A stretch of DNA of 64,000 bases from the NCBI RefSeq assembly GCF_032823475.1, contig NZ_CP127913.1, positions 1-64,000 of the forward strand, given 5' to 3'. The notes beneath the pieces are model-generated. The model was not told the origin of the DNA and ran no database searches. It was given only the letters and a program-made list of their open reading frames with translations. Of the stretch, positions 27,736-60,183 are shown one piece after another (position 1 is the first letter of the stretch; every line of letters begins with the position of its first letter). The DNA comes from Acinetobacter sp. SAAs474. Lineage in GTDB: Bacteria > Pseudomonadota > Gammaproteobacteria > Pseudomonadales > Moraxellaceae. A program made the position numbers and the translations under genes.

Positions 27736-28479
27736 ATGTCTGATTTGACGATCCTTTCACAACGCATTCCTAAATATATTGCAATACGTGACGCAATTGC
27801 ACATCAAATAGAATCCGGACAATTGACTCAACAGATGAAATTACCTTCCGAACGGCTCTTAAGTGAACAATTTTCAACCACACGTGTTGCAGTAAGAGAA
27901 GCTCTGCTGGCTTTAGAAATGGATGGTCTTATTTATCGTTTAGATCGTCGAGGATGGTTTGTTCGCGCACCACGTATTATTTACCATTTACAATCAACAA
28001 AAAGTTTTAATCAATATGTTCAAGAGCAAGGAGGAATTCCTGCAACCGAACTAATTTCTGCCGAATCTGTCGCAGCGACAGAATGGGACGCAGCACACCT
28101 TCATATTGATGTCGGTGATGAGGTTTATTCAATTTGGCGTCGTAGAAGTATTAATGGTCGTCCTGCTGTCGTTGAACATTTAAGAATTAATGCAAAACTT
28201 TTCCCACACTTTCTAACACAAAACTTACAAGACTCTATTACGCTATTAATGGCAACAAAATATCAACGTCAATTAACACGTGCCCATATTAATTTATATC
28301 CAACCGCATTTTCTGAACAACAGGCAAAAGCATTACATGTCAATGTCGGCAGTATGGGCTTATATATTTGTCGTACCAACCGCGATCAAAATGGCATGAT
28401 TACCGATGTTGATCAGGAATACTGGTTACATGATGTCCTTGATTTACATTTTGAGGCACAAAACAATACGATATCTTAA
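27736..28479 (+). CDS. GntR/HutC-type regulator of the phosphonate locus
   Basis: 247 residues: N-terminal winged helix of the GntR type (LPSERLLSEQFSTTRVAVRE, then ALEMDGLIYRLDRRGWFV) and a C-terminal UTRA ligand domain (DEVYSIWRRRSINGRPAVVE). It immediately precedes a 2-aminoethylphosphonate transport and degradation locus, so it is probably the PhnR-type regulator. Two near-identical palindromes centred on TGGTTTAAACCA, before the binding-protein gene and before phnW, are the likely operators; PhnF of mycobacteria recognises a TGGT-N4-ACCA site. Confidence 0.88.
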   Translation: MSDLTILSQRIPKYIAIRDAIAHQIESGQLTQQMKLPSERLLSEQFSTTRVAVREALLALEMDGLIYRLDRRGWFVRAPRIIYHLQSTKSFNQYVQEQGGIPATELISAESVAATEWDAAHLHIDVGDEVYSIWRRRSINGRPAVVEHLRINAKLFPHFLTQNLQDSITLLMATKYQRQLTRAHINLYPTAFSEQQAKALHVNVGSMGLYICRTNRDQNGMITDVDQEYWLHDVLDLHFEAQNNTIS

Positions 28480-28501
28480 TCATTTTACTGTGCTTTTTAG
28501 T

Positions 28502-28525
28502 TTAATCTGGTTTAAACCAGATTAA
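28502..28525. promoter_or_regulatory. Phosphonate-locus operator 1
   Basis: Perfect 24-base palindrome, arms TTAATCTGGTTT and AAACCAGATTAA, 66 bases before the binding-protein start. Its core ATCTGGTTTAAACCAGAT recurs exactly at 33850-33867. It fits a GntR/HutC dimer site. The symmetric stem could also act as a weak terminator for the regulator gene. Confidence 0.85.
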
Positions 28526-28591
28526 TCAAATTGTCATAAATTTTTGTTGAAATAGCATCTATCCAAGAATTGCATTCATTAGGAATGTCAG

Positions 28592-29635
28592 ATGCGTCAG
28601 TATTTAAATCAGCAAAAAAAGCCTATCGCTTTGCTCGCAAGCAGTGCATTGTCTGCATGGATAAGCGTTGGATGTAGCACCAAATCGACTGTCGGCGAAA
28701 ATGAGCAAATTACCGTCTATACCGCTGTAGAAGCCGATCAACTACAACGTTATAAATGGGCATTACGACAAGCTTATCCAGAATTAAAAGTAAGATGGGT
28801 ACGAGATTCTACAGGAGTAATTACCGCAAAATTATTGGCTGAACAAAAAAATCCGCAAGCCGATGTGGTCATGGGTGTTGCTTTAACCAGTATATTGATG
28901 ATGGAACAAAACAATATGCTGCAACCCTACAAACCAAAGTATATTGAACAACTTAAAACAGATTTTTATAGTCAAAAAGATATTCCGACTTGGACTGGTA
29001 TGACCGCGTGGGAATCTGCCATTTGTGTAAATACCTTTGAACTAAAAAAGAAAAATCTCCCAATACCACGCAGTTGGAAAGATTTAACCTTACCAATCTA
29101 TAAAGGCATGATTGTCATGCCAAATCCTGTTTCTAGTGGAACGGGTTATTTAGATGTAACTGCATGGATGCAGCTTTTTGGCGAACAACAAGCATGGAAT
29201 TATATGCGTGCTTTAGATCAAAACATTACTCAGTATGTTCATTCTGGATCTAAGCCCTGTAAAATGGCGGCACAAGGTGAAACCTTAATCGGAATTTCAT
29301 TTGGTTATCCTGGTTATAAATTAAAAGCACGTGGCGCACCACTTGAAATTATTTATCCTAAAGAGGGATTAGGCTGGGAAATGGAAGCATCAGCCATTAT
29401 TAAAGGCACAAAAAAACTCACCAGCGCACAAAAATTTATTGATTGGACTGTCAGTCAGTCTGCCAATCAAGTCTATGCACATAATTTTCCCATTGTGGCA
29501 CATCAAAAAGTCACTAGCCCGAACCCTGACTTTGATCAAAATTTATCGACAAAATTAATCAAACATAATTTTTATTGGGCAGCAACACAGCGTGAAAAAA
29601 TTTTAAAACAATGGTCAGCACAGTTCGAACACTAA
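28592..29635 (+). CDS. phnS: 2-aminoethylphosphonate ABC transporter substrate-binding protein
   Basis: Periplasmic binding protein of the PhnS/FbpA type, 347 residues. The signal region contains a lipobox-like SVGC (Cys 28), so it may be lipid-anchored. Features: ITVYTAVEADQLQRYKWALR, VRDSTGVITAKLLAEQKNPQ and ADVVMGVALTSILMM, typical of iron/phosphonate binding proteins. Placement with ATPase, permease and phnW/phnX fixes the likely substrate as 2-AEP; an iron-binding role is excluded only by context. Confidence 0.88.
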   Translation: MRQYLNQQKKPIALLASSALSAWISVGCSTKSTVGENEQITVYTAVEADQLQRYKWALRQAYPELKVRWVRDSTGVITAKLLAEQKNPQADVVMGVALTSILMMEQNNMLQPYKPKYIEQLKTDFYSQKDIPTWTGMTAWESAICVNTFELKKKNLPIPRSWKDLTLPIYKGMIVMPNPVSSGTGYLDVTAWMQLFGEQQAWNYMRALDQNITQYVHSGSKPCKMAAQGETLIGISFGYPGYKLKARGAPLEIIYPKEGLGWEMEASAIIKGTKKLTSAQKFIDWTVSQSANQVYAHNFPIVAHQKVTSPNPDFDQNLSTKLIKHNFYWAATQREKILKQWSAQFEH

Positions 29636-29683
29636 GCTGTAAATCATTTTAAACCCGATGATATCACTCTATTTAGGCACATT

Positions 29684-30883
29684 ATGCAAATTCCACTTCA
29701 CTTACAACAAGTCTTGCCAGAAAAAATGACTAATCTTTCTGCAGGACATTTACTTTCTACATTAAAAAGCTACTCAACTCATCAGGCAAAAACGATTCTT
29801 GAAGTTATTGATGTACAGAAATCTTTTGCACAAAGTACCGTTTTAAAACATATTAATTTAGCCTTAAAAGAAGGTGAGTTCGTTAGTTTTTTAGGTCCAT
29901 CTGGCTGCGGAAAAACCACATTATTACGTATTATTGCTGGATTGGAACAACCGGATTATGGTCGAATAATTAAACAACAACGTGATATTACTCAATTGGC
30001 AACAGCCAAGCGTCAATGTGGTTTAGTTTTTCAAAATTACGCTTTATTTCCCAATTTTACAGTGGCGGAGAATATTGCATTTGGTCTAGATAAAAAAAAT
30101 TGGTCTAAGCAACAGATTACAGCACGAGTTAATGAACTATTACAACTGATAGAATTACCACATCTGAACAATCATTATCCTAATCAACTTTCTGGCGGTC
30201 AACAACAGCGTGTGGCTTTGGCACGTGCTATTGCACCTCAACCTGATATTTTATTACTAGACGAACCACTATCCGCTTTGGATGCTTTAGTACGTCTAAA
30301 TTTACGTCAAAAAATTCGCATGATTCAGCGTCAGTTAAACCTTCCCGTGATTATGGTGACACATGATCAAGAAGAAGCACTGAGTATTTCAGATCGTGTA
30401 GCCGTCATGAATCAAGGTGTAATTGAACAATTGGATACACCGCATAATATCTATTATCAGCCGCAAACACGCTTTGTCGCAAACTTCATTGGTAGCATGA
30501 ATTTTATAGATGCGATTGCGGTGGATAAACATCGTTTGAATATTGCACAAGACTATCATCTCGACATGCCGGGAATACAATTTGCACAGCAAGAACGTCT
30601 AGAAATCGCATTTCATCCAGAAAGCGCTCAACTTTTATTTGAAAATCAACAACAAAGTGGAAAATTAAACCTCGCTGTACGTATTTTAAGTATGGAATTT
30701 TTGGGTGCAAAACGTCGCTTATTTTGTACCTTACACACCCATGATCAGGCCACAACATCAGCTTTAATCTTACAAGTTGATATTGAAAATCAATACTTTT
30801 CTACTTTAGCAGATGAAATGTGGTTACAAATCCCATGCAATGCATTGCATATTTTTGATATGCAAGGACGTGCAAGATGTTAA
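29684..30883 (+). CDS. phnT: ABC transporter ATPase for 2-aminoethylphosphonate
   Basis: 399 residues; cytoplasmic ATPase of the 2-AEP importer. Walker A GPSGCGKTT, Q-loop VFQNYALFPNFTVAENIAFG, signature LSGGQQQRVALARAI, Walker B ILLLDEPLSALD and H-loop VTHDQEEAL. A C-terminal TOBE-like part follows (IAFHPESAQLLFE). The first 35 residues precede the ATPase fold and are unusual; an internal ATG at 29726 is an alternative start. The stop overlaps the permease start by 7 bases. Confidence 0.9.
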   Translation: MQIPLHLQQVLPEKMTNLSAGHLLSTLKSYSTHQAKTILEVIDVQKSFAQSTVLKHINLALKEGEFVSFLGPSGCGKTTLLRIIAGLEQPDYGRIIKQQRDITQLATAKRQCGLVFQNYALFPNFTVAENIAFGLDKKNWSKQQITARVNELLQLIELPHLNNHYPNQLSGGQQQRVALARAIAPQPDILLLDEPLSALDALVRLNLRQKIRMIQRQLNLPVIMVTHDQEEALSISDRVAVMNQGVIEQLDTPHNIYYQPQTRFVANFIGSMNFIDAIAVDKHRLNIAQDYHLDMPGIQFAQQERLEIAFHPESAQLLFENQQQSGKLNLAVRILSMEFLGAKRRLFCTLHTHDQATTSALILQVDIENQYFSTLADEMWLQIPCNALHIFDMQGRARC

Positions 30884-32589
30884 ATTCAACCACGGCAAGT
30901 GCTGTACTTAAACATAAAATATATCAAAGGCCACGTTATGCGTTAGGATCAAGTATGGTGTTGTGTTTTGCAGCATTTTTTCTGACCTTATGTTTAATTG
31001 TCCCCCTTTTAATATTATTACAAAGTGCATTTTTAGATGAAAATCAACAGTTTATTGGTTTAGAAAATTTTAAAATTTATTTTTCTAACCCTGCCTTAAT
31101 TTCATCTATTTTTCATTCATTATCTATTGCATTATCCGCAACACTAATCACGGTAATATTGGCAAGCATATATGCATTTGCCTTGATCAATACGCAGATG
31201 AAAGCAAAAGCATTTTTCAAAACAGTGGCTTTTTTACCCATTTTAGCACCTGCGATTTTACCGGCATTGGCTTTAATTTATTTATTTGGTCAGCAAGGTG
31301 TTTTTAAAGATCTTTTGGGTAGCTTAGAAATTTATGGTCCTTTAGGAATATTAATTAGTTATTGTTTTTGGTTATTCCCTGCCATGGTCATGTTAATGAG
31401 TACGGCTTTTCGTAATATTGATCAACGTTTAATTGAGGCTGCGTATGCATTGGGTAAAACGCCTTGGCAAACTCAATTTGTAGTGATTTTACCTGCAATA
31501 CGCTATGGCTTAATTAGTGCATGTTTAGTGGCATTCACCTATGTCATCACTGATTTTAGTATTCCCAAAGTTATTGGTGGATCATTTAATATGATGGCTT
31601 TGGATGTATATAAACAAATTATTGGCCAACAAAATATCAGTATGGGTGCGGTCATTTCAATATTGCTATTATGCCCAGCACTGTTGGCTTTTATGATTGA
31701 TCGTTATCAACGGCATCGTCAACAACATACTCAATCTTCACAGACCCAGCCTTACTATATTGCAAAAAATCACAAGCTTGAAACATTATTTACCGTATTT
31801 TGTAGTATTGTTGCCACAGCAATTTTATTAATCATTATCACCGCATTTCTTGCATCTTTTATTCGTTATTGGCCTTATGACTTATCTTTGACATTCAGCC
31901 ATTATCGCTTTGATTATGTCGATGGTGGCGGTTGGCCTAGCTATTTTAATTCCTTAAAATTGGCATTCTGGACCAGTATAATCGGTACCAGTATGATTTT
32001 TATCATTGCTTTATTTACAACACGTTTTAAAGCACATCCCCTACTTAAAAACTATGTGCAAATGTTAGCCTTATTGCCTTTAGCTGTACCCGGATTAGTA
32101 TTAGGAATTGGCTATATTTTATTTTTTAACCAACCAGAAAATCCGTTATCGATACTATATGGCGGTATGACATTATTGGTGCTCTCTACGATAATTCACT
32201 ATTATAGCGTCCCACATTTAACCTTTAGTCATGCCATTCAACAAATTCCAGATCAATTAGATCATGCAGCTCAAAGCCTGAATATTTCTCATTGGAACAT
32301 GTTAAGAAAAGTCTATTTTCCGTTGACTTTACCTGCATTATGCGACGTATCAGTGTATTTATTTGTCAATGCCATGACCACTGTTTCTGCAGCAATTTTC
32401 TTATATTCACCAGAAACAAGTCTTGCCTCTATTGCGGTACTTAATATGGATGATGCTGGCGATACTGTGGCTGCCGTTGCAATGAGCATTTTAATTCTAG
32501 CAACGTCTTGTGGCATTAAATTATTACATTGGTGCTTAACACGAAAAATGCTGCAATCTAGCCAACGCTGGCGTGAACCCTACCATTAA
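30877..32589 (+). CDS. phnU: Fused two-domain permease of the 2-AEP transporter
   Basis: 570 residues holding two binding-protein-dependent permease halves in one chain, about 12 membrane segments. Each half carries an EAA loop: IDQRLIEAAYALGKTPWQTQ in the first (about 185-205) and PDQLDHAAQSLNISHWNMLR in the second (about 455-475). In Salmonella the equivalent functions are split between phnU and phnV; here they are fused as in FbpB-type iron permeases. It is translationally coupled to the ATPase gene. Confidence 0.88.
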   Translation: MLNSTTASAVLKHKIYQRPRYALGSSMVLCFAAFFLTLCLIVPLLILLQSAFLDENQQFIGLENFKIYFSNPALISSIFHSLSIALSATLITVILASIYAFALINTQMKAKAFFKTVAFLPILAPAILPALALIYLFGQQGVFKDLLGSLEIYGPLGILISYCFWLFPAMVMLMSTAFRNIDQRLIEAAYALGKTPWQTQFVVILPAIRYGLISACLVAFTYVITDFSIPKVIGGSFNMMALDVYKQIIGQQNISMGAVISILLLCPALLAFMIDRYQRHRQQHTQSSQTQPYYIAKNHKLETLFTVFCSIVATAILLIIITAFLASFIRYWPYDLSLTFSHYRFDYVDGGGWPSYFNSLKLAFWTSIIGTSMIFIIALFTTRFKAHPLLKNYVQMLALLPLAVPGLVLGIGYILFFNQPENPLSILYGGMTLLVLSTIIHYYSVPHLTFSHAIQQIPDQLDHAAQSLNISHWNMLRKVYFPLTLPALCDVSVYLFVNAMTTVSAAIFLYSPETSLASIAVLNMDDAGDTVAAVAMSILILATSCGIKLLHWCLTRKMLQSSQRWREPYH

Positions 32590-32684
32590 GATTTAACACC
32601 TTAAACAATAACTTTTATCAATGGTTTGCTTAGGCAGACTAGGGACTAACACATGTTTAAAATAACCCAATATGGAATATCAAT

Positions 32685-33839
32685 ATGAACAGGATAGATA
32701 CAGATCTGATTGTAGTTGGAGCTGGAATTTTAGGTTTATCTGCAGCAATTCAAGCTGCAGAGCAAGGCTTAAGGGTTTGTCTTTTTGAAAAAGATCCACA
32801 CGCAATTGGTGCTACACGACGTAATTTCGGTATGGTTGGTATCTCAACCTTAACCCGCCCTGATACAAAATGGCGGCAATATGCATTGGAAACTTGCCAA
32901 TTTTATCAACGTATCCAAAATCAACAAGATATTTCTTTCCAGCAACGGGATGGCGTGTATTTGGCCAACACAGAATTAGAATGGCAAGTGCTTCATGAAT
33001 TTTCTCAAGTTGCGCCTGATTATGCGATTGCCGTGACTTTATTGAATCAACAGCAATTAAGACAACGTTGTCCTTATTTAAATGTAAATGCTGGTATTCG
33101 TGGTGGATTATTGTTTCACGCAGATTATTCCGTTGAGCCTGAGCTTATCACTGATCGCTTATTAGATTATGCACAGCAATTAGGTGTCAAGATTTATCAC
33201 AATGCATGTGTGATTCAAACACGTTCAGAACAAGGTAAGGCAGTCATTCAGCTGGCATCTGGTCAATGCTATACAGCAGCAAAAATCTTTATTTGCCATG
33301 GTGAGATCAGTCAGATTCTTTATCCAGAGGTATTAAAAAAATTAGGACTATTGCGTTGCAGTTTACAAATGATGCTGACGGAACCACTGCGGTATTCTCT
33401 CCATGCCTCTTTATATTCGGGCTTATCAATCTCACGTTATCCTGCTTTTGAAATTTGTCCTAGTCATAGCGCATTAATTGCTGAATCACAACAAGGCGTG
33501 GTGAAGGATTATGGACTGCACATTTTAGTCAAACAGAATCAGTATGGCCAACTTATTTTAGGGGATAGCCATGAATACCGGACACTTGATCAAGCCAAAC
33601 AGTTTAATCAACGAGAAGAAATCAATCAGTTTATTTGGCAATATTGCCAGCAAAAAATGGGCCTCATGTTGCCCAAAATCACATCACGTTGGAATGGTTA
33701 CTATTTAACTCATCCAGATCACTTAGCCAGTGTGATTGAAGTTGAACCTCATATTTTCTTGATTAGTGCCATTGCTGGAAAAGGAATGACAACTGGTGCA
33801 GGTTTTATGAAAGAAATATTAGAAACGTATATTTTATAA
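32685..33839 (+). CDS. FAD-dependent oxidoreductase (DAO family) of the phosphonate locus
   Basis: 384 residues of the D-amino-acid-oxidase/glycine-oxidase fold. FAD site DLIVVGAGILGLSAAIQAAE at 7-26, then LRVCLFEKD, and the C-terminal FLISAIAGKGMTTGAGFMKE. It belongs by context to the family that regularly accompanies phnW/phnX (known as TIGR03364). Such enzymes are thought to oxidise 2-AEP or its N-alkylated forms; that activity is inferred, not shown here. It follows the permease by 95 bases and precedes the second operator. Confidence 0.82.
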   Translation: MNRIDTDLIVVGAGILGLSAAIQAAEQGLRVCLFEKDPHAIGATRRNFGMVGISTLTRPDTKWRQYALETCQFYQRIQNQQDISFQQRDGVYLANTELEWQVLHEFSQVAPDYAIAVTLLNQQQLRQRCPYLNVNAGIRGGLLFHADYSVEPELITDRLLDYAQQLGVKIYHNACVIQTRSEQGKAVIQLASGQCYTAAKIFICHGEISQILYPEVLKKLGLLRCSLQMMLTEPLRYSLHASLYSGLSISRYPAFEICPSHSALIAESQQGVVKDYGLHILVKQNQYGQLILGDSHEYRTLDQAKQFNQREEINQFIWQYCQQKMGLMLPKITSRWNGYYLTHPDHLASVIEVEPHIFLISAIAGKGMTTGAGFMKEILETYIL

Positions 33840-33849
33840 GCATAATGTC

Positions 33850-33867
33850 ATCTGGTTTAAACCAGAT
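33850..33867. promoter_or_regulatory. Phosphonate-locus operator 2
   Basis: Perfect palindrome ATCTGGTTTAAACCAGAT, identical to the core of the site at 28502-28525, placed 42 bases before the phnW start. It suggests that phnW-phnX form a second transcription unit under the same GntR regulator. Confidence 0.85.
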
Positions 33868-33908
33868 TGATTTATACTACATTTAATCTATTCAAAAGTG
33901 ATCTTGTT

Positions 33909-35021
33909 ATGAATGCCCAAATTGAACTTGATAACCCATATATATTGCTTACACCAGGTCCACTATCAACCTCGAAAAATGTCCGTCGTGTTATGCAACG
34001 GGATTGGTGTACATGGGACAAAGAATATAATGATTTGGTAGAGGAAATTCGACAACGACTGGTTGCTTTAGCCACAGAGCAAACTGAAGACTATAGTGCT
34101 GTTTTAATGCAAGGTAGTGGCAGTTTTTCAGTAGAAGCAGTTTTAGGATCGGCAATAGCACCGACTGGAAAAATTTTAATTATTAATAATGGTGCTTATG
34201 GCGCGCGTATGGTGCAAATGGCACATCGTTTAAATATTGACGTCGTGGAGTTACGTTATCCTGAAACACAGACACCCGTTTTATCAGAAATAGAAACAGC
34301 TTTATTAGATCAGGATATTACTCATGTTGCTTGCGTACATTGTGAAACAACGACAGGCTTATTAAATCCTATTCAAGAAATTGGCCAACGCGTAAAAGCG
34401 GCACAAAAAGTGTGGATTGTTGATGCCATGAGTTCATTTGGTGGAATCCCTATGGATATCGCCCAACTAGATATCGATTTTCTTATTTCAAGTGCCAATA
34501 AATGTATTCAAGGTGTACCTGGCTTTGGTTTTATTATTGCCAAACGTCATCAATTACAAGCATGTCGGGGACTAGCACGCTCTGTAAGTTTAGACCTATA
34601 TGATCAATGGCATACCATGGAACAGCACGCGGGTAAATGGCGTTTTACTTCTCCTACACATGTGGTTCGTGCTTTTTATCAAGCACTCTTAGAGCTCGAA
34701 CAAGAAGGTGGAATTGCGGCACGTTATCAACGTTATGCTCGTAATCAGCAACAATTGTCTATTGGTATGCAAGCATTGGGTTTTGAACTGGTTTTACCTG
34801 CTGATAGTGCCCAATCCCCAGTAATTACGACATTTTTATACCCAAAAGATCATCAGTTTAATTTTATGACGTTATACAACAATTTAAAACAAGCTGGTTT
34901 TGTGATTTATCCAGGTAAAGTGACCGATCTCGACTGTTTTCGAATAGGCAATATTGGTGAAGTTTATCTAGAGGATATTCAACGTCTTGTTACCGCTATG
35001 ACAGCCTACTGCCAGCATTAA
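33909..35021 (+). CDS. phnW: 2-aminoethylphosphonate--pyruvate transaminase
   Basis: PLP enzyme that converts 2-AEP and pyruvate to phosphonoacetaldehyde and alanine, 370 residues from the ATG at 33909 ([20 protein letters not shown]); the frame runs open to 33867 through the operator. Motifs: [20 protein letters not shown], the substrate pocket [28 protein letters not shown], and the PLP Lys in [15 protein letters not shown]. The product is used by PhnX, encoded 42 bases downstream. Confidence 0.95.
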
Positions 35022-35063
35022 ATAGATGCATTACTCAATAAATAAATATTTTAGGACAATATC

Positions 35064-35879
35064 ATGACCACGACTAATACCGTATTACAAGCCGTTATTT
35101 TTGATTGGGCTGGAACAACCGTAGATTTTGGTTCTCGTGCACCGATTCTGGCTTTTATGGCACTGTTTGCCGATAATCATGTGACGATTAGTATCGATGA
35201 GGCCAGAGCACCAATGGGTTTAGAAAAACGCGATCATATTGCAGCAGTTCTCAATATGCCTCGAGTCGCAGCAGCTTGGCAAGCCATATATGATCGTGCT
35301 GTTACTGAGGCAGATATTGATCGTTTATATCAAGATTTTATTCCCTATCAACTTAAGACGATTCCACAATGTTCACAGCTGATTCCCGGTGCAGTAGCTG
35401 TATTTAAAGATATTCGTGATCGTGGTGCTAAAATCGGCAGTAATACAGGATATGCAGCGATGATGATTGAGCAATTAGTTCAAGATGCAGCAGCGCAAGG
35501 CTATATACCAGATTGTATTATTACAGCCAGTGATGTAAAACATGGACGACCATATCCAGAAATGCTATGGAAGAATTTAATTGCACTGGAGGTATCAGAC
35601 ATTAAAGCCGTGGTTAAAGTCGATGATACTGTTGTGGGCATTGAAGAAGGCTTAAATGCTGGATGCTGGACAGTCGCCTTGGCTGTGAGTGGTAACGAGG
35701 TGGGTTTAAGTTATCCAGAATGGATCAGCTGTTCTGAATTAGAACAGCACACGTTAAAAACCAAGGCTTATACAAAAATGCAAACTTCTGGCGCACACTA
35801 TATTATTGATACTATAGCTGATTTACCACAGGTTCTGGATGATATTCAGCAACGTTTGCAACAAGGTGAAACACCTTAG
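35064..35879 (+). CDS. phnX: Phosphonoacetaldehyde hydrolase
   Basis: HAD-family C-P bond hydrolase, 271 residues; yields acetaldehyde and phosphate. Motif I DWAGTTVDFG (about 10-19) holds the nucleophile Asp, MGLEKRDHI the Schiff-base Lys, SNTGYAAMM motif II and VKVDDTVVGIEEGLNAGCW the acidic motif III. It ends the phosphonate locus; the acetaldehyde could be handled by the aldehyde dehydrogenase at 2.7 kb, which is speculation. Confidence 0.95.
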   Translation: MTTTNTVLQAVIFDWAGTTVDFGSRAPILAFMALFADNHVTISIDEARAPMGLEKRDHIAAVLNMPRVAAAWQAIYDRAVTEADIDRLYQDFIPYQLKTIPQCSQLIPGAVAVFKDIRDRGAKIGSNTGYAAMMIEQLVQDAAAQGYIPDCIITASDVKHGRPYPEMLWKNLIALEVSDIKAVVKVDDTVVGIEEGLNAGCWTVALAVSGNEVGLSYPEWISCSELEQHTLKTKAYTKMQTSGAHYIIDTIADLPQVLDDIQQRLQQGETP

Positions 35880-46292: not shown

Positions 46293-47021
46293 TTACATAT
46301 TAAAAACTTTATCTAATTGACTATAAATAGATTTTTTATATAACTCCAAGCGACGTTTAATGATCGCACCAAAGTATTGTTGATCCATATCGACTTCACT
46401 AAAGATAAATTTTTTCTTATTCATCAATTCTAAGTCATAGAGTAATGGAGATGATTGCAAATCATTTAATTTAACTTCACCAATAATATTGGAGAGTACC
46501 TTAAAATTTTCATCCTGATGAAAATCTTGGTCTAATGCACCATGAAATTCATTTTGCCAAATAATAAACTTATTATTTGGAAAAAGTCTTGCTAACTTTA
46601 ATAACTCTTTATAACAATCATGGAAATCGATATTACCAGCAAGCGGTACATGGAAATATATTTCTCGATTATTTTCTTTAAAGAGATTTAAAATATCACT
46701 CCCTTTAATATAATTAATAAAATTGATATGTGTACTTGCGCCACTATCAATTAAAAAACAACAATCATTTAATAAAATCGTTTCAAATAGAGGATCAAAA
46801 TAAGCACGAGAGTCTAAATTGCCATTAATCATTTTAAGCTCTAGTTTTTGTGCATTTAATCCCTTAAATGACACTAGCCCATCATTGAGTGGATCTGCAT
46901 CAAAAGAGAAAACATTCATATGTTCACGTAAGTATTGGATCAGTAATCTCGAAATAAATGATTTTCCTACCCCACCTTTTGCCTGCGTAACAATATGAAT
47001 TGAAGTTTTAGATAAACTCAT
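46293..47021 (-). CDS. TraL-like/ParA-superfamily P-loop ATPase
   Basis: 242 residues. Deviant Walker A KGGVGKSF near 14-21, an Asp-containing FSFDADPLNDGLVSFKGL segment, and LIDSGASTHINFINYI in the Walker B position. The order AQKLELKMINGNLDSRAYFD, LIDSGAS and a terminal RRLELYKKSIYSQL resembles TraL of IncP-type conjugation systems rather than partition ParA. No other tra genes are seen. It is co-directional with, and 24 bases after, the 600-residue membrane repeat protein gene, so the two probably work together. Confidence 0.75.
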   Translation of the reverse strand: MSLSKTSIHIVTQAKGGVGKSFISRLLIQYLREHMNVFSFDADPLNDGLVSFKGLNAQKLELKMINGNLDSRAYFDPLFETILLNDCCFLIDSGASTHINFINYIKGSDILNLFKENNREIYFHVPLAGNIDFHDCYKELLKLARLFPNNKFIIWQNEFHGALDQDFHQDENFKVLSNIIGEVKLNDLQSSPLLYDLELMNKKKFIFSEVDMDQQYFGAIIKRRLELYKKSIYSQLDKVFNM

Positions 47022-47045: not shown

Positions 47046-48848
47046 TTATTTATACATATTAGTAAGTTTCTGATATGTGTCCAAGATTTTTTTAACATTT
47101 AATTCTTTATCTGTATTTAAATGATCAGATTTTTCAGTTTTATCTTCTTTTAACACTTGATCTTTAAGATTTTTAGAATCTAAATCGGATATTTTTTCTT
47201 CATTGGATAATTTAGTCAAGTCAATAGCCACATCTTTTTGACGGACAAATGCGACTTGCTCAACACAATTTGTGGGTTGAATTAAATTTTTTTCATGACG
47301 ATCAGCGTCCTGAATAATATCCGATGACGATTGAGCATTCGAAAAATTTAAATCTATCGGTCTAATTAACAAATGTTCATAATCTTCTTCATTAGTTTGC
47401 CCTTGAGATGAGTTAAATGTATCTTGTGATTTCATTGATGTCGCAAAAGCAATTTTAAACGCTGATTCAGGTATCACAGATAAATGATCATTTGCTAAAG
47501 AAGTCGTCAAGAGATCTGAATCAGTTGATTTCATTTGATGATTTAACACTGATGATACTTGAGGTAATTTTTTTTCAATAGCGAGCGTTTCATTTTCAAG
47601 TTGTTGTGATAAAGATATACATGGTTTTAAACTCATAGTTGATGCAATGTTATCTACTACAGATGACGTTATAGATTTTTGTGTTGCCGTCATAATATTT
47701 TTTATATCATGATCTACTTCGGAAGATTCAGCTAAATCTTCCGCTATCATGCTTTGTTGTTGAAGCTCTATGGGCGTAGATTTAATAAGGTCTATAGATA
47801 CTGGCTTATTATCTGAATAAGACTCTGTAACAGGTGATGCTATGGTGTTAACTGATTCTAGAGGCTGTTTACTCGCTGATTCGACTAAATCGATAGATGT
47901 TCCCAGATGATCTGGATCAGACTCTGTAACAGGCGATACTATGGCGTTAACTGATTCTAGAGGCTGTTCATTCGCTGATTCGACTAAATCGATAGATGTT
48001 ACCAGATGATCTGTATCAGACTCTGTAACAGGCGATACTATGGCGTTAACTGATTCTAGAGGCTGTTCATTCGCTGATTCGACTAAATCGATAGATGTTA
48101 CTAGATGATCTGGATCAGACTCTGTAACAGGCGATACTATGGCGTTAACTGATTCTAGAGGCTGTTCATTCGCTGATTCGACTAAATCGATAGATGTTAC
48201 CAGATGATCTGGATAAGACTCTGTAACAGGTGATGCTATGGTGTTAATTGATTCTAGAGGCTGTTCACTCGCTGATTCGACTAAATCGATAGATGTTCTA
48301 GGATGATCTGGATAAGACTCTGTGATAGGTACCACAATATAATTTTCGGTTTCCACAACTGTATCTTTTTGTGCTATAAATCTTCCAGCGACTGAGTCTT
48401 GTAATTTCGCTTTCGTATGTTGCACAGAAAAATGTGCTATACGCGGTATTTGATGATCAATTCTGATGATTTTTTTAGATAAATCATTAAGTATAATATT
48501 ATTTTCCATCTGTAATGGTGGTATCTGAGCTTTTAATGAACTATCCAGATGATCTGTCTTTAGCCCATTCTCAAGCTGATTAAATAAAAATGCTTGTACC
48601 GCATCATGGTAGTAATTTTTCATATCAAATGGACCATCGAGAATCACGATATTAGAATCACTTATCGCTAAAGTGGAAGTTTCTTTCATCGTACTGGGTG
48701 TTTTTTGTGATGATGTGGCTAAAGTACTCTGATTTATATATAAAATTTTTTTAATGATAATAATTTGAGCGATAATACAAATAATAAGCAATATTGCAAT
48801 TAAAATTGCCAAATATATATATATATTTAATTTAGAATCAAAGCTCAC
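47046..48848 (-). CDS. Membrane-anchored protein with 33-residue tandem repeats
   Basis: 600 residues, not recognised. One N-terminal membrane helix (about 8-37, IYLAILIAILLIICIIAQII) is followed by a long hydrophilic part. Residues 174-338 are five tandem copies of a 33-residue unit with core TSIDLVESANEQPLESVN, then a degenerate sixth copy. The C-terminal end is charged and finishes with VKKILDTYQKLTNMYK. The layout suggests a stalk that spaces a C-terminal binding helix from the membrane. It is upstream of and probably cotranscribed with the TraL-like ATPase gene. A single-pass topology with the repeats outside the cytoplasm is possible but unproved. Confidence 0.75.
   Translation of the reverse strand: MSFDSKLNIYIYLAILIAILLIICIIAQIIIIKKILYINQSTLATSSQKTPSTMKETSTLAISDSNIVILDGPFDMKNYYHDAVQAFLFNQLENGLKTDHLDSSLKAQIPPLQMENNIILNDLSKKIIRIDHQIPRIAHFSVQHTKAKLQDSVAGRFIAQKDTVVETENYIVVPITESYPDHPRTSIDLVESASEQPLESINTIASPVTESYPDHLVTSIDLVESANEQPLESVNAIVSPVTESDPDHLVTSIDLVESANEQPLESVNAIVSPVTESDTDHLVTSIDLVESANEQPLESVNAIVSPVTESDPDHLGTSIDLVESASKQPLESVNTIASPVTESYSDNKPVSIDLIKSTPIELQQQSMIAEDLAESSEVDHDIKNIMTATQKSITSSVVDNIASTMSLKPCISLSQQLENETLAIEKKLPQVSSVLNHQMKSTDSDLLTTSLANDHLSVIPESAFKIAFATSMKSQDTFNSSQGQTNEEDYEHLLIRPIDLNFSNAQSSSDIIQDADRHEKNLIQPTNCVEQVAFVRQKDVAIDLTKLSNEEKISDLDSKNLKDQVLKEDKTEKSDHLNTDKELNVKKILDTYQKLTNMYK
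47790..48329 (-). repeat. 99-bp tandem repeats inside the membrane-protein gene
   Basis: Five in-frame copies of a 99-base unit plus a partial degenerate copy. The central three copies differ by only a few bases, while the outer ones diverge more, which indicates recent internal expansion. Copy number is likely to vary between strains. Confidence 0.88.
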
Positions 48849-53099: not shown

Positions 53100-54070
53100 A
53101 GATTTTAGATAAAGCTTCGCTTTCAAAGCAAAATGATTCATTTGATGATTAAGTTTTAATTGTTCAAGTTTCAATACACTACAAATTGATAAAAACAAAT
53201 GATTACTTTAAGTTCTAACCTTTCTGGTAGGTGATTTTGCTATGCTCGCATAGACTTCAGTGATTTATGATAAACCTCAATATTCCATCGTTTTTGATAA
53301 ATACGGATAATATCATTTCCATCTAGGGATAAATCACTGCATACTAAATCTAATGAACCTATACTTCCGTCTTTGTTTGTAAAAACTTGCCGACAAATCA
53401 GGACTTCATGCAAATATCCTTTTAGCTAACCATGTACAAATTCACCATCTTTTAATGCAAGGTCTCTTACTTTATGGAAATAACCATCTCTTCTATCTTT
53501 TGCACTCAATGCAACAAGATAATTACTCTTTAATGCACCTATAAAGTGATGTCTTTTCTTACGAATCAGTTCAAAAGTTTCTTTAGAACTAAACCATGAG
53601 TCAAACAGAACATATTTAAACTTCACTGAACTAACAAGCATCTGCAAGAACATTTGATGTAGCATTTCATTCTTTGTAATCAAACTTTCTCATTTAATTT
53701 GCTTTGTTTTTAAATCACAGTAACACACTGGTTTTTCAATAATTTCAAAGCTTAAAGGTAATGAAATACTGTTGTGATGATAAATTAAATTGAGGAGGAT
53801 AATGCCTTTAACAGATCTACCTGTACTATGGTCAAAATGATAACAAATAATGTCATTTTCATCCGTCCATTGTTTTTCGATAATGGTGTCATCAAAAATT
53901 AAAACACCCTCATCGGCTTAAACTTGTCTGAGAGTAGGTTTAACAAGTTTCCATAAATCTTTACTGGTGAATGTTTGATTTGATAAAAAGCGAGTGATTT
54001 GATCGTGACTCACGCCACTATCAAGCATCCGTGATAATTGTTTAGCTGTTATTTATTAAGTTGAACAAAT
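53100..54070 (-). pseudogene. IS4/IS701-type DDE transposase, decayed
   Basis: Reading leftward: LSRMLDSGVSHDQITRFLSN, FTSKDLWKLVKPTLRQV, a stop, then GVLIFDDTIIEKQWTDEND with the first catalytic Asp, HFDHSTGRSVKGIILLNLIY, another stop, VLFDSWFSSKETFELIRKKR, a stop near 53426, and IIRIYQKRWNIEVYHKSLKS with the catalytic Glu near 53240. All catalytic regions are recognisable but at least three in-frame stops break it. The longest open piece is 53426-53683. Confidence 0.85.
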
Positions 54071-54444
54071 CAAAAATCAGTATAGAAGTCTAACAAATCT
54101 TTATTCATGTCATGAATTATAGGACTTTTTGAATCTAGTGCGTAACATCAGTTAATTAAATATTATATATTGTTTGATTTATGTAAATATTGTTACTTTT
54201 ATTAAACTAATAAAATAAATAAATATAAATATTGCTCGTTTATTAACCATAATAAACAACGAGATAAGATAAATAGTTTTTAAATAACTACAAACAGATT
54301 GTTAAGAATAAATTAACAATTGATAACGTAAAGGAATTTTCAAATCTGTATTTTTAAATAAGCAAATGTTTACCATTTGTAAATGTTTACTATTTGTAAA
54401 TATTTACCATTTGTTAAAATTTAATCTATTAAAGGAAATAAAAT
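54071..54444. promoter_or_regulatory. Control region of the peptide cassette
   Basis: About 370 bases, extremely AT-rich, without ORFs. It contains an imperfect hairpin (CTCGTTTATTA at 54235-54245 with TAATAAACAACGAG at 54250-54263) and three tandem 17-base repeats just before the first cassette gene. A TTAACAA-rich stretch lies between. It marks the left edge of a cassette with composition unlike the catabolic loci. Confidence 0.5.
54364..54414 (+). repeat. Three tandem 17-base repeats upstream of the peptide gene
   Basis: Units AAATGTTTACCATTTGT, AAATGTTTACTATTTGT and AAATATTTACCATTTGT follow one another without gaps. They end 30 bases before the peptide start. The phase (about 1.6 helical turns) and position suggest an operator array for a regulator not encoded in the cassette. 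Confidence 0.85.
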
Positions 54445-54660
54445 ATGATTAATAAATCAATTAAAAACAATAATATAGATAGTGTAATTAACAATATTAT
54501 TGTTAATTTAAGCGAAGATAAAATTATTGAATGGACTGAGCAAGGTGCTTTGGGTGTTACTCCTCATCTAGCTTATTGCCCAAACTATATTATTCAACCT
54601 CCAGTCATTCCTCTACGTATGATTGCTTACGAGGATATGACTTCTGAAAAAGTAATTTAG
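54445..54660 (+). CDS. Short peptide, candidate RiPP precursor
   Basis: 71 residues, AAAGGAA just upstream. The N-terminal half is helical and Asn/Ile-rich with an acidic end (SIKNNNIDSVINNIIVNLSE), like a leader. The C-terminal half differs in character: GALGVTPHLAYCPNYIIQPP then VIPLRMIAYEDMTSEKVI, with one Cys, several Pro, Tyr and His. I recognise no family. A terminator-like stem directly follows, and an HExxH enzyme gene and an ABC transporter gene come next, which is the layout of a ribosomally made, modified and exported peptide. That reading is inference. Confidence 0.65.
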   Translation: MINKSIKNNNIDSVINNIIVNLSEDKIIEWTEQGALGVTPHLAYCPNYIIQPPVIPLRMIAYEDMTSEKVI

Positions 54661-54670
54661 CTCGATATAA

Positions 54671-54704
54671 GAGTTAGGTAATTATCATATTACCTAACTC
54701 TTTT
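54671..54704 (+). terminator. Attenuator/terminator between peptide and enzyme genes
   Basis: Perfect 12-base stem GAGTTAGGTAAT / ATTACCTAACTC, 6-base loop, then TTTT. Partial termination here would give more peptide message than enzyme message, a common feature of peptide clusters. Confidence 0.8.
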
Positions 54705-54727
54705 AATCTAAGGATAGGAGATAGCAA

Positions 54728-55585
54728 ATGTTGATTCAAACTAGCTTTCAGGAACAAATGGAAAATATTATCTGTTTAGTTACGAGAAAATATCCAGATA
54801 ATATCAAAAAAATTACAAATAGTTCAGAATTAAAAGAACTGTACTATTCATACCTCGAAACGCTTCAAAAAAGAAAAATAGAAGATAACGATGATGGATT
54901 AATTCTTACATCATTCGATAAAGCTTTTAGAATTTCTAAAGACTTCAACGGTGGATCCGGTGTTTTAGATGATTTTGATCAAAAAAACAATATCACATTA
55001 AAACCTATTGAAAATATTGAAGAAAAAAAAGAGCAGTTGAAAGAAGCATTAACTTTTTTAGCTGAAGTACATGATGAATATTATTCTTTACTTAATTTTA
55101 TGATTACTAATATTTTCTTATTTCCATCTGAAGTTGCTGCAGGAGGTTCTTCATCAACAGCGGTTGGTACAATATGGGCAAATTTAAAAGAAAAATTATC
55201 TACTAAAGATGTAGCAGAATTTTTTATTCATGAACTTACGCATAACTGTATTTTTATAGACGAACATAGATATGGTCATTACGATTATCATATTATTTCG
55301 GATGAGTCTACATGGGCAACATCTGCGGTATTGCTTACAAATAGACCTTTAGATAAAGTGTTACATAGTATTATAGTTTCTATGGAAATTATCTTATTTA
55401 GAGAAAAAGTGATCGGTCATCCACAACAACCCAAGATCCATCCTCCAACTGAAATTTTATTAAATCAAATAAAACAATCAATTAACTCAATAAAAACAGT
55501 GGGAAAAAAATTTCCTAAGGCTTTATCTCAAAGATCATACGATCTATTAGAAAATGTTGAATCGAATTTAAAAAAAATAACTTAA
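54728..55585 (+). CDS. HExxH-motif putative peptide-modifying protein
   Basis: 285 residues, GGAG before the ATG. The motif FIHELTHN places the metal ligands His168 and His172 and Glu169. Further on RPLDKVLHSIIVSMEI (about 206-221) contributes His213 as a possible third ligand. HEL-HN followed by RPL--VLH fits the HExxH family linked to RiPP clusters, some members of which are described as 2-oxoglutarate-dependent peptide beta-hydroxylases, not proteases. The N-terminal 110 residues are helical and could bind the leader. A metallopeptidase role remains possible. It lies between the peptide and transporter genes, 19 bases before the latter. Confidence 0.72.
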   Translation: MLIQTSFQEQMENIICLVTRKYPDNIKKITNSSELKELYYSYLETLQKRKIEDNDDGLILTSFDKAFRISKDFNGGSGVLDDFDQKNNITLKPIENIEEKKEQLKEALTFLAEVHDEYYSLLNFMITNIFLFPSEVAAGGSSSTAVGTIWANLKEKLSTKDVAEFFIHELTHNCIFIDEHRYGHYDYHIISDESTWATSAVLLTNRPLDKVLHSIIVSMEIILFREKVIGHPQQPKIHPPTEILLNQIKQSINSIKTVGKKFPKALSQRSYDLLENVESNLKKIT

Positions 55586-55603
55586 TAAAAATGGTAAGGT
55601 ATT

Positions 55604-56944
55604 ATGGAAAAATATAAAATTTTTTTTGGAACCAAATTTTCTATTATATCACTAATCTTAGTTTTACTTCACCAATCCGTAATTGCCTTATCAGTTATTT
55701 TTCTAACTAACGTAATTAATGATTTTCAAAATCATGTTAGTTTTTCAAAAAATTTATTATTATATTTATTTTGTATGATTTTTCCATATTTTCCCGGATT
55801 AATTTCATTTGTTTTTTTACAAAAATGGGTTAATTATTCTCATCAAGAATATTTAAATTATGTATATAAAAATAACTCATTAAGTCCATTTGACTTAAAG
55901 AGAAAAGTCCAAAGTGAAAGAATAGGATCACTAATATCGAGAAACTCCTTCAGTATAGTAACTTCAACTTTATTTTTCCTACATGATTTTTTAACACTAT
56001 TTCTAAATAGCTTTTTAAGTCTTATTATATTTTTTATAATTTTACCTAAAGAAATTTTTATTGGTTATTTTTTAAGTTTTATTATTAGTTTTATATTAAT
56101 AATAATGACAAGGAAAATTATTGAAAAAATAAATTATGATGTTGAGTTTAATATGATAGAGTACGGAAATTTTCTTAATAAATTCCCAGATAACTATGCA
56201 ATACAAAATAGTATAAACAAAAACACATGGTTTAAAAAATCAAAAAAATATGGAGAATCTTACTATAATTCAACGCTAAAAGCACAATTAACAAGACAAT
56301 CCATTAGCTTAGTATTAGCAATGATAGCTATACTTCCTACTAGCTATTTAATTTTTATCACACTAACATCTAATGAAATTAAATCAGCTGTTATGGCTGC
56401 TATAATAGTAAATATTACAAGAATTTATGCAGTCTTAAGCTCTCTAAATTCTGTCTTAAGCTCTTTCATTGAAATACCATCAATAATAGGTAGATTGAAA
56501 ATTTTATTTGATTTAAATGAAACTAATATAATTGATAAAAACTCATTAATTAAAAATATAAAAATCAATGATGAGTTACTCAAAAATAACGATGATAGAT
56601 TCAATTACTTAATAAGTCAAACACTCGGAAGATTCACTATTAGAGGAGGAAATGGATCAGGTAAAAGTACATTCCTTCATGAACTAAAAGATAAAATTGG
56701 TGATGATGCAATATTAGTACCAACTAATTTAAATAATCTATTATGGTCTGAGGATTTAGATTTAGAAAAACTATCAACAGGTCAAAAAATAAATAAAATA
56801 ATAAATTTAGTTAAAAATAATAATATTAAATATTTACTACTAGATGAATGGGATGCCAATCTAGATAAAAATAAGAAAATTGAAATTAATAACTTATTAG
56901 ATTCTTTAAGTTTAAATAAAGTGATAGTGGAAGTACGACACTAG
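55604..56944 (+). CDS. ABC transporter with compact ATPase domain
   Basis: 446 residues: six membrane segments (about 12-290) fused to an ATPase of only about 115 residues. Walker A GGNGSGKST is at 348-356, signature LSTGQ at 390-394, Walker B YLLLDEWD at 410-417, and the H-loop His446 is the last residue (VEVRH). The gap between Walker A and signature is about 35 residues against roughly 100 usually, so most of the helical subdomain and the Q-loop region are missing or reduced. It is probably the exporter of the cassette peptide. No peptidase domain is present, so any leader must be removed by another protein. Strongly AT-rich. Confidence 0.8.
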   Translation: MEKYKIFFGTKFSIISLILVLLHQSVIALSVIFLTNVINDFQNHVSFSKNLLLYLFCMIFPYFPGLISFVFLQKWVNYSHQEYLNYVYKNNSLSPFDLKRKVQSERIGSLISRNSFSIVTSTLFFLHDFLTLFLNSFLSLIIFFIILPKEIFIGYFLSFIISFILIIMTRKIIEKINYDVEFNMIEYGNFLNKFPDNYAIQNSINKNTWFKKSKKYGESYYNSTLKAQLTRQSISLVLAMIAILPTSYLIFITLTSNEIKSAVMAAIIVNITRIYAVLSSLNSVLSSFIEIPSIIGRLKILFDLNETNIIDKNSLIKNIKINDELLKNNDDRFNYLISQTLGRFTIRGGNGSGKSTFLHELKDKIGDDAILVPTNLNNLLWSEDLDLEKLSTGQKINKIINLVKNNNIKYLLLDEWDANLDKNKKIEINNLLDSLSLNKVIVEVRH

Positions 56945-56994
56945 ATAAAGACAAACATTACTTATTTTTTATTTGAGTTATTTAAGAATGTAAT

Positions 56995-57062
56995 TAACCC
57001 TAATCTTGTTTAAGCCAATAATTCAAATTAGAGAATCATTAGCTTAAACAAGATTAGGGTTA
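56995..57062. terminator. Long hairpin after the transporter gene
   Basis: Perfect 21-base arms (left begins TAACCCTAATCTTGTTTAAG, right begins GCTTAAACAAGATTAGGGTT) with 26 bases between that themselves pair imperfectly. It lies 51 bases after the transporter stop and probably ends the cassette transcript, though no T-run follows; it could also be a small inverted-repeat element. Confidence 0.55.
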
Positions 57063-57146
57063 TTAACTAATAAACCTTTAGAGCTAAGCGCCATGGTAAT
57101 ACCCCCATTATTAATTGAAGTTAAAAATAAAAGCTCTAAGCATTTA

Positions 57147-58336: not shown

Positions 58337-58488
58337 AAAAGTGGAAGGCTTGTCACTGAAAAGTGGAAGGCTTGTCACCGAAAAGTGGAAGGTTTGTCAC
58401 TGAAAAGTGGAAGGCTTGTCACCGAAAAGTGGAAGGCTTGTCACCGAAAAGTGGAAGGTTTGTCACTATGGTGGAAGATTTGTCACGG
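58337..58488 (+). repeat. Origin iterons (six 22-bp units plus one partial)
   Basis: Six head-to-tail 22-base units with consensus AAAAGTGGAAGGYTTGTCAC + TG/CG begin at 58337, 58359, 58381, 58403, 58425 and 58447; a seventh, degenerate unit (GTGGAAGATTTGTCAC) ends at 58488. Exact spacing of 22 bases puts the sites on one DNA face, as for Rep_3 initiator binding. Confidence 0.93.
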
Positions 58489-58575
58489 CTTTAAAAAAAA
58501 TAGCGAATATATGAATAAAAAATATTAAAAAACAATATATTATACTGTTGATAACTTGTGTTTTTTTGATTTAAA

Positions 58576-58973
58576 GGTGGAAACTTTGTCATTTATGCTT
58601 GCTTGCATTGTGGATAACTTTTTTTTCAAATTATTTATCTTAATATTTCATTTATTTATCACAGTAACTGCAACAAAAGTGGAAGCTTTGTCACTTTAAT
58701 GGTGAATTTTTTATTATACTTTCCACTATATTCAGTTATTTAGTCGAATTTTTTTATTTTTAAATATTATAAAAAGAAAGTAATCTTATTAAAAGTGGAA
58801 GCTTTGTCACTTTAAGGTGAATTTAATTATTTTATTCCACTTTTTCTATTGAAACGTATTTTAAATCTACAACTAAAGTGACATATCTTCCACTATTAAG
58901 TTTTTTGAATTGTTTTATATACAGAAAATAATTTTATGAGCATAGTGAATTGTTTGCATAGTTTTCCACTTTT
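58576..58973. other. Dispersed iterons and DnaA box of the origin
   Basis: Single iteron-like sites GTGGAAACTTTGTCA (about 58577), AAAAGTGGAAGCTTTGTCAC (58675-58694) and the same 20-mer again at 58791-58810, plus inverted sites GTGACATATCTTCCAC (58878-58893) and TTTTCCACTTTT (about 58962). A perfect DnaA box TGTGGATAA is at 58609-58617. Inverted sites close to the rep start are typical for rep autoregulation. Confidence 0.8.
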
Positions 58974-59010: not shown

Positions 59011-60183
59011 ATGACGACTCTTAATCAAAAACAAGAAACAGAATATTTACCATATTGTATTGGCAATATTCGACATAATGGTGTGGTAAGTACGAGCAAT
59101 CGTCTGATTAGACCAATTGAATTATCATCTAATGAATATAAGGCCTTACTTTATGCAATGGCTGTTGCTAACTATGGGGAGAAAAATAATCAAGATCGAG
59201 AGATTACTGAACAAACTTATATTTATTTACATAAAAATGACTTAGGTGAGCTATTGGGTTTAGATAAAAAAAACTCAATCAATGTCGCAATTGATCGTAT
59301 ATATAAAGAATTGTCTTCTCGTGTTGCTCATTTTATTATTGAGGAACCCGTTGCTGAAAATAAACGAAAAGTTAAAAAAGTACACTCCGTTGTACCCATT
59401 ATTCGTGAGTTACGTTGGGAAGATGATGCCAAGAATGCATTACAAATTCGATTTACGAGTGAAGTCTTGCCTTATTTTACCCGTTTAGCCAGTGGTAATT
59501 TTACCACTTATCAGTTAAAAGACTTATTTGCTTTGGACTCTGTCACCAGTATGAGTTTATATTCTTATTTTATTAAAAATGAGTTTAAATATTCAAATCA
59601 AGAGCAATATGAAGTTGAACTTTCACTGGAAAATATTAAAGCATTAATTGATATTGGCGAGAAAAAATATGATCGTTGGATTGATTTTAAACGCTATGTT
59701 TTAGATAAAATTATTGATGAAATTAACACAAAAACTAGTCTTAAATTAGAATATGATGCCATTAAAAAAGGTCGACCTGTTGTTGGGGTTAGATTTAAAA
59801 TGATTAATCAACATGTACAGCCTTTTTTATCTCAAGATCAAGAAAAAATTAAAATTTATTTAGATGTTGATTTTGAGGATAATGCAGTAGTAAAAGAGCT
59901 TGGTGCTAAATTCGATTTAACAGTGCGTTCTTGGTATATTTACAATACTGATCCGCATTATAAACAATTTAGTAAATGGTTTAAAAAAGAGGGATGTTTA
60001 ACTGACTCACAAGCAAATGTGATTGTGAATGATATTATTTTTCAAATGGATTTTGCTGTAGCTGGAATATCGATGTCAGAATTTAAAAAAGAAATGAAAT
60101 ATAAACTTAAAAATAATCCAAACTTTGTTCAGGAAAATAAAATGCGTCTTAATGAAATATTTGGTAAAGATATTATAATCTGA
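59011..60183 (+). CDS. repB: Rep_3 family replication initiator with C-terminal DUF5710-like domain
   Basis: 390 residues. Two winged-helix domains of the Rep_3/RepB initiator group: LIRPIELSSNEYKALLYAMA and LGLDKKNSINVAIDRIYKEL in the first, TYQLKDLFALDSVTSMSLYS and WIDFKRYVLDKIIDEINTKT in the second. After about residue 285 an extra part begins: IYLDVDFEDNAVVKELGAKF then DLTVRSWYIYNTDPHYKQFS, which looks like a DUF5710-type module. It lies next to matching iterons and a DnaA box, so it starts replication of this replicon and probably represses its own gene through the inverted sites. Confidence 0.92.
   Translation: MTTLNQKQETEYLPYCIGNIRHNGVVSTSNRLIRPIELSSNEYKALLYAMAVANYGEKNNQDREITEQTYIYLHKNDLGELLGLDKKNSINVAIDRIYKELSSRVAHFIIEEPVAENKRKVKKVHSVVPIIRELRWEDDAKNALQIRFTSEVLPYFTRLASGNFTTYQLKDLFALDSVTSMSLYSYFIKNEFKYSNQEQYEVELSLENIKALIDIGEKKYDRWIDFKRYVLDKIIDEINTKTSLKLEYDAIKKGRPVVGVRFKMINQHVQPFLSQDQEKIKIYLDVDFEDNAVVKELGAKFDLTVRSWYIYNTDPHYKQFSKWFKKEGCLTDSQANVIVNDIIFQMDFAVAGISMSEFKKEMKYKLKNNPNFVQENKMRLNEIFGKDIII

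Follow-up and report, generated by a model that had tools for sequence, protein, structure and literature searches.

The stretch analysed here (the window) comprises the first 64,000 nucleotides of contig NZ_CP127913.1 of Acinetobacter sp. SAAs474, a contig of 135,518 bases in a genome of 3.52 Mb, and it carries a three-gene cassette that probably makes a ribosomally synthesised and post-translationally modified peptide (RiPP). All three open reading frames (ORFs) are intact, co-directional on the forward (+) strand, and located where an earlier reading of the DNA letters (the sequence-only reading) had placed them: a gene for a precursor peptide of 71 residues (54445..54660), a gene for a stand-alone alpha-ketoglutarate (alphaKG)-HExxH-type oxygenase of 285 residues (54728..55585), and a gene for a compact ATP-binding cassette (ABC)-exporter-like protein of 446 residues (55604..56944). 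Three copies of a 17-bp tandem repeat of the AAATGTTTACCATTTGT type (54364..54431, + strand) stand just before the ribosome-binding site of the precursor; they occur once in the window, had no counterpart ahead of the precursor genes of three Acinetobacter relatives, and are possibly an operator. A hairpin occupies the gap between precursor and enzyme genes (54666..54705, + strand), and an inverted repeat with 35-nt arms (89% complementary) lies 3' of the exporter gene (56990..57067, + strand) as a candidate terminator or insertion sequence end. The AT-rich character and the decayed transposons described previously were both borne out: GC content is 23-26% in the three 1-kb bins of 54001-57000 versus 27-43% in other window bins, and helix-turn-helix, rve and DDE pieces of 82-84 residues lie upstream and an rve piece of 78 residues downstream, with the rve and DDE pieces scoring under Pfam cut-offs. 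Plasmid p12SAAs470 (135,520 bases) of Acinetobacter sp. SAAs470, from a lake in South Australia, encodes an identical precursor and a 100% identical HExxH protein, with the same gene order in the surroundings compared. The record annotates the enzyme as 'HEXXH motif-containing putative peptide modification protein', the peptide as 'hypothetical protein' and the last gene as 'ATP-binding protein'.

The HExxH protein had been picked out by a HEL-HN ... RPL--VLH pattern, which is present as HELTH (residues 168-172) and RPLDKVLH (206-213). It scores 55 bits against TIGR04267, the alphaKG-HExxH peptide beta-hydroxylase model (cut-off 40, E 9.9e-15), and its predicted structure matched the HExxH oxygenase domains of ChlH and SjiH far above all else. 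By profile and predicted fold, the window enzyme is thus assigned to a known family of peptide-oxidising iron enzymes, whose fold and several of whose reactions have already been described. An unrelated metallopeptidase fold had been named as a finding that would speak against a RiPP cassette; the model instead resembles the oxygenase domains. It is also conceivable that the protein is an ordinary zinc peptidase, which would process the peptide for export in the manner of a bacteriocin without oxidising it. The HExxH motif itself agrees with such a role, and the family member PflC hydrolyses a leaderless substrate with Zn, Co or Fe according to the available excerpts of PMC12636437; fold and profile, however, make a plain metallopeptidase quite improbable.

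Homologues of the enzyme are rare and patchy. At E <= 1e-3 they were found in 7 of 299 family-level, 3 of 390 order-level and 2 of 369 class-level genomes, the window's own included. A scan of GTDB contigs yielded 21 loci, from Acinetobacter (3), Bordetella, Cupriavidus, Moraxella, Photorhabdus (3), Acerihabitans, Vibrio (2), Nocardia, Streptomyces, Frankiaceae, Planktothricoides, Oscillatoria, two deltaproteobacterial metagenome-assembled genomes, Bdellovibrionales and Fimbriimonadia. The set of 27 loci used below excludes L001-L008 and L011-L014 as repeats of the same places, together with the second HExxH gene of L009, the weak matches L043 and L044, and L071. In a tree of 30 proteins, the entries from the 21-locus scan, G443, G283 and the Staphylococcus plasmid proteins formed one group of 24 (100/99), separate from six other family members; nine of the 27 inner branches are well supported and ten are open.

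Directly upstream of the stand-alone enzyme gene, in five phyla, lies a precursor with the tag M-[IV]-A-[YFH]-[DEN]. The window precursor has a leader-like N-terminal part, and after its tag, LR-MIAYE, only the eight residues DMTSEKVI remain (ending LRMIAYEDMTSEKVI). Related endings are LRMIAYNDMKSKKVI in A. gerneri, LRMIAYDDMVNDTNN in A. genomosp. 15BJ, LRMIAYEDMVNLDK in A. calcoaceticus JUb89, LRMIAYDDMMKED in Bordetella, LNMIAYEDQA in Cupriavidus, MRMIAYDNKRTKTQS in Moraxella, VRMIAYDDLV in Photorhabdus, VRMIAYDDLA in Acerihabitans, RNMIAFEDQE in Vibrio, LRMIAFDQNN and LIMIAFDEMNAK in Deltaproteobacteria, VVMIAFNNNK in Bdellovibrionales, and LVMIAHDLEAEMF and LVMIAHDLEAENF in cyanobacteria; in Nocardia (MRMVAFD) and Streptomyces (MNMVAFD) the tag stands at the very C-terminus. 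The regular expression M[IVL]A[YFH][DEN] matched within 600 bp upstream of the enzyme gene, on the same strand, in 20 of the 27 loci, and nowhere else in six frames of the remaining 282.9 kb. The sequence-only reading had been made to depend on homologues having an adjacent peptide gene, and this count agrees with it. A fairer measure starts from the letters MIAY of the Acinetobacter loci: among the 18 loci that the GTDB scan found outside this genus, 7 repeat them upstream, nine more have MIA or MVA followed by Phe or His, and two (L035 and L036) have neither. These counts include near-duplicates (three Photorhabdus, two Vibrio and two cyanobacterial loci). Among the seven loci missed by the expression, a small upstream ORF has a variant ending in L035 (MFTV), L042 (MTAR), L009 (MQIHD) and L010 (MQIHT), small ORFs of another kind occur in L015 and L016, and no small peptide ORF was recognised upstream in L036. 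Within the genus Acinetobacter the tag is confined to genomes with the cassette. In a phylum-level sample, TIGR04267 matched in 18 of 398 genomes (15 over cut-off); no tag peptide was present within about 1.5 kb on each side at the 18 sample loci besides the window's, or at L043 and L044, although the script located no HExxH ORF in L059, L061 or L062.

Two other family loci have distinct arrangements. On Staphylococcus plasmid pPH1-1 (L009:5679-9035), a peptide ending MQIHDEE is accompanied by two tandem HExxH proteins and a major facilitator superfamily (MFS) protein like the ryptide-exporter model. In the Moraxellaceae genome G045 (L016:3918-8550), the neighbours of a distant HExxH protein are a flavoprotein, an MFS-looking protein and one that resembles SagD/YcaO at 28.9 bits, well short of the cut-off; the small ORF upstream contains MVVSFDD, and this is perhaps another RiPP cluster.

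The Cys/Pro/Tyr-rich C-terminus emphasised by the sequence-only reading is real in the window peptide, which has several Pro and Tyr in its C-terminal half and a single Cys, but it does not extend to the family: Cys/Pro richness is found mainly in Acinetobacter and Bordetella, and the feature common to the precursors is the MIAY-type tag near the C-terminus. The leaders are only loosely alike, as judged by eye, and the 35-residue Moraxella precursor has hardly any leader. AGG or GGA occurs in the 18 bases 5' of the chosen start in 19 of 22 precursors (absent in L019, L024 and L029; L028 left out). The window peptide had no match up to E 1 in Pfam or NCBIfam, and a known precursor family was rejected for ten relatives' peptides as well, their matches being weak and far below cut-offs (best E 0.016). 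No description of MIAY-type precursors was found in open-licence PMC papers, a weak negative given that supplements fell outside the search, nor is the tag mentioned in the available excerpts of PMC12636437, which presents a similarity network of the family. The tag thus seems to have been undescribed so far and to be without a curated model.

The tag could also be a follower: the HExxH protein would oxidise the alpha carbon of its alanine, or hydrolyse there, trimming the C-terminus to leave an amide, and the product would be the Cys/Pro-rich stretch before it. Alanine is present in all 20 loci matched by the expression (by its construction), a Cys/Pro/Gly stretch precedes the tag in Acinetobacter and Bordetella precursors, and the site cleaved by PflC and PosC lies ahead of a small residue (Ala, in part Gly) in a motif that also contains RM, as reported in the excerpts of PMC12636437. 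Most other precursors, however, are 35-60 residues long, lack such a stretch and share little except the tag, and the Staphylococcus variants have Ile at the alanine position (MQIHD, MQIHT). We consider a follower unlikely.

The proposed attenuator between peptide and enzyme genes was confirmed as a structure but not as a recognised terminator. Positions 54658-54712 fold at -19.5 kcal/mol (z -7.2), which none of 200 dinucleotide shuffles equalled; a simple terminator scan of the region returned no terminators, and no Rfam family was over threshold in the window. Of the 18 cassettes whose gap was folded, 16 reached -14.9 kcal/mol or below, the exceptions being L022 (23-nt gap) and L028 (37-nt gap). 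Shuffle controls on four gaps gave z values of -7.2, -7.2, -5.9 and -4.9; L025, L029 and L030 have gaps long enough to fold fairly well by chance. Hairpin sequences differ among cassettes, and therefore position rather than sequence is conserved. The hairpin is likely a partial terminator or an RNA-stability element.

A hairpin after a short ORF would also be consistent with a regulatory leader peptide for operon attenuation, rather than a RiPP precursor. Comparison of the Photorhabdus precursors L026 and L037, the only pair with enough changes, revealed 12 synonymous and 2 nonsynonymous changes, so that this peptide appears to be under purifying selection. Other pairs are less telling: synonymous versus nonsynonymous changes number 2.5 versus 3.5 in Vibrio and 4 versus 5 in cyanobacteria, with none between L026 and L027, 19 versus 19 between L026 and Acerihabitans (dN 0.20, dS 2.5; nonsynonymous and synonymous rates), and 25.8 versus 55.2 between the window and A. 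gerneri (dN 0.50, dS 1.7). The tag is common to several phyla and, in Acinetobacter, restricted to cassette genomes, and one informative pair points to purifying selection; we therefore reject the regulatory-leader reading as very improbable.

The third gene had been described as a membrane-ATPase fusion, and its product indeed joins a helical membrane part to an ATP-binding part with Walker A (348-355), the signature LSTGQ (390-394), Walker B (LLLDEW) and a terminal VEVRH, in which the H-loop histidine was placed by eye. Since the Walker B glutamate is kept, ATP binding is expected and hydrolysis probable. A Walker A-signature spacing of about 90-100 residues is usual in ABC ATPases, and the one other ABC ATPase measured (29684-30883 in the window) has 90. 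In the compact proteins the spacing is 31-34 residues in 12 of the 14 aligned (by script; the other two are short by eye), some 55-60 fewer than in that single comparison protein, and thus not that of a complete nucleotide-binding domain (NBD) with Q-loop and helical subdomain. The best solved structures in a profile search were soluble ABC-F proteins, matched via the ATP-binding part, followed by NdvA, MsbA and BmrA, which cover the membrane part too. The predicted model matches MsbA, TmrAB and McjD, but its domain packing is not supported, given a mean confidence (pLDDT) of 79 and a root-mean-square deviation (rmsd) of about 15. Transport is a presumed function of this protein.

A compact ABC gene is beside or soon after the enzyme gene in 17 of the 27 loci, of which 14 were aligned. 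In Bordetella sp. 02P26C-1 (L019:4001-6265) the HExxH and compact ABC proteins share one 754-residue frame, with ABC as the C-terminal half. A methyltransferase gene intervenes between enzyme and ABC genes in Photorhabdus and a JmjC_2 gene in Vibrio; the V. chagasii cassette (L031:3778-6950: precursor, HExxH, JmjC_2, ABC protein) has two different oxygenase-type proteins. Where the compact gene is lacking, a methyltransferase comes next in cyanobacteria, an unknown protein and then an MFS protein in Nocardia, and an MFS protein in Staphylococcus; that of S. aureus resembles the ryptide-exporter model under its cut-off (233.7 versus 575 bits).

That a short precursor, an alphaKG-HExxH-type protein and often an ATPase are kept together is solidly established: the genes stay together in other species more than expected by chance. 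We infer beta-hydroxylation, export and peptide modification from characterised relatives. The RiPP cassette proposed by the sequence-only reading gains support from these data, and we think it probable that the precursor is modified by the HExxH oxygenase, with a beta-hydroxyl in the tag, and exported by the ABC protein. The hairpin would let precursor be made in excess over enzyme; the oxygenase would use Fe(II) and 2-oxoglutarate, bind the precursor via its N-terminal region and tag, and hydroxylate one of the tag's beta carbons, the aromatic residue (the window's Tyr) being the most likely site; export of the product would fall to the ABC protein; and, because no protease is encoded in the cassette, the leader would be cut off by one encoded elsewhere in the genome.

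Oxygenation in or beside the tag is likely, and its candidate sites differ in probability. The transformations of alphaKG-HExxH enzymes cannot at present be predicted (PMC13060819). The aromatic residue is favoured, at a little short of an even chance, on three grounds: Asp and His are the targets of ChlBH (excerpts of PMC12636437), the beta-hydroxy group tied to BipH sits on an aromatic residue (excerpts of PMC12707348), and the tag pairs an aromatic with an acidic or amide residue. The acidic or amide residue itself is a weaker candidate. The oxygenase might cut the backbone instead, as PflC and PosC do; alpha-oxidation of the alanine, leaving a C-terminal amide, seems less likely again. Modification of the Leu or Pro before RM would be surprising, and a site elsewhere, or none at all, equally so.

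Several observations weigh against this interpretation. No protease or immunity gene was seen within the cassette, the compact ABC gene is absent from 10 of the 27 loci within the stretch examined, and in Photorhabdus tasmaniensis (L037:3532-5594) the enzyme gene is apparently truncated while precursor and ABC gene are kept. The regular expression was composed after inspection of the sequences, and tree placement of the long-branch proteins (L015, L016, L036 and others) is unsure. The aromatic residue of the tag is not universal, as the peptides of L035 (LNMFTVKQ) and L042 (LNMTARNSQGTSY) lack it, and that of Acinetobacter G320, which ends QQMVAM upstream of HExxH and ABC proteins, lacks both aromatic and acidic residue (G320 was found later via its ABC protein and is not counted among the 27).

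A bolder and rather doubtful extension is that these cassettes form a RiPP class, present in at least five phyla (more with variant endings) and characterised by a stand-alone alphaKG-HExxH oxygenase together with precursors that end in M-[IV]-A-[YFH]-[DEN]. The product would then be the tag, made into a small beta-hydroxylated peptide signal or a molecule resembling a cofactor, and not the variable core of a bacteriocin; the exporter would be a new, reduced ABC type whose NBD has lost the helical subdomain. The alphaKG-HExxH oxygenases are a recently recognised family, and the cassette is very small, with one precursor, one oxygenase and one exporter-like protein. Its tag is short enough for residue-by-residue testing, with natural variants (Tyr, Phe, His; MVAM) as ready-made mutants, and the shortened ABC protein, if it transports, would be informative on how ATP use is coupled to transport.

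Two other identities were tried and rejected: one scan of viral contigs found no relative, and PADLOC, which catalogues defence genes, gave no match for the HExxH protein and matched the ABC protein only in its ATP-binding part. Elsewhere on the plasmid, ORFs at 58363-58699 contain a repeated stretch (EKWKACHRKVEGLS) just before a Rep3-type initiator (59011-60183), and the DNA repeats may be origin iterons. A 600-residue protein with degenerate internal repeats (SIDLVESANEQPLESVNAIVSPVTES; 47046-48848), without a PADLOC match, lies beside a ParA-looking protein (46293-47021) and an annotated ParA/ParB pair. Regulator, transporter, oxidoreductase, class-V aminotransferase and HAD hydrolase genes at 27736-35879 (Pfam for two genes) presumably resemble a set for 2-aminoethylphosphonate breakdown. 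A chaperone-usher fimbria-like operon lies at 7148-11749 (usher by Pfam, the rest by eye), and condensation-domain and AMP-binding genes further along (L008:22661-24855) are a possible second natural-product locus.

Compared with known systems, the window ABC protein differs from the type IV exporters MsbA, McjD and PCAT1 in its 31-34 residues between Walker A and signature and its VEVRH ending; their rmsd to the window model is about 15, with the domain arrangement not matched. ChlH/ChlBH (PDB 8s5f) has its alphaKG-HExxH domain fused to a radical S-adenosylmethionine (SAM) enzyme, whereas the window enzyme is stand-alone, without radical SAM or cyclophane; the two share 13% identity over the structural alignment, and their precursors differ. 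In the excerpts of PMC12707348, BipH of biphenomycin is likewise an alphaKG-HExxH enzyme tied to a beta-hydroxy aromatic residue, and its cluster includes a JmjC protein, as the Vibrio loci carry JmjC_2; unlike the window cassette, it serves a macrocycle pathway with a multinuclear non-haem iron oxidative enzyme (MNIO), a B12-dependent radical SAM enzyme and a TldD-type protease, on a precursor ending FRFRS. PflC/PosC and PflA/PosA of Pseudomonas, as excerpted from PMC12636437, are alike in combining a stand-alone alphaKG-HExxH enzyme, an RM-containing C-terminal tag and a cluster without protease. Their precursors have a nitrile hydratase leader peptide (NHLP) leader and the tag ARMD after a Gln run, an ending that the window precursor (LRMIAYEDMTSEKVI) does not have, its tag being of the MIAY[DEN] type, and their clusters include GNAT and MNIO-nitroreductase, of which the window cassette has none. 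The nitrilobacillin pathway (PMC13060819) employs an MNIO, an asparagine-synthetase-like protein and M16 peptidases, none of them in the window cassette, but there too an alphaKG-HExxH enzyme, PesO, goes with a conserved C-terminal tag that contains R, R(V/T)DN, and acts immediately ahead of it.
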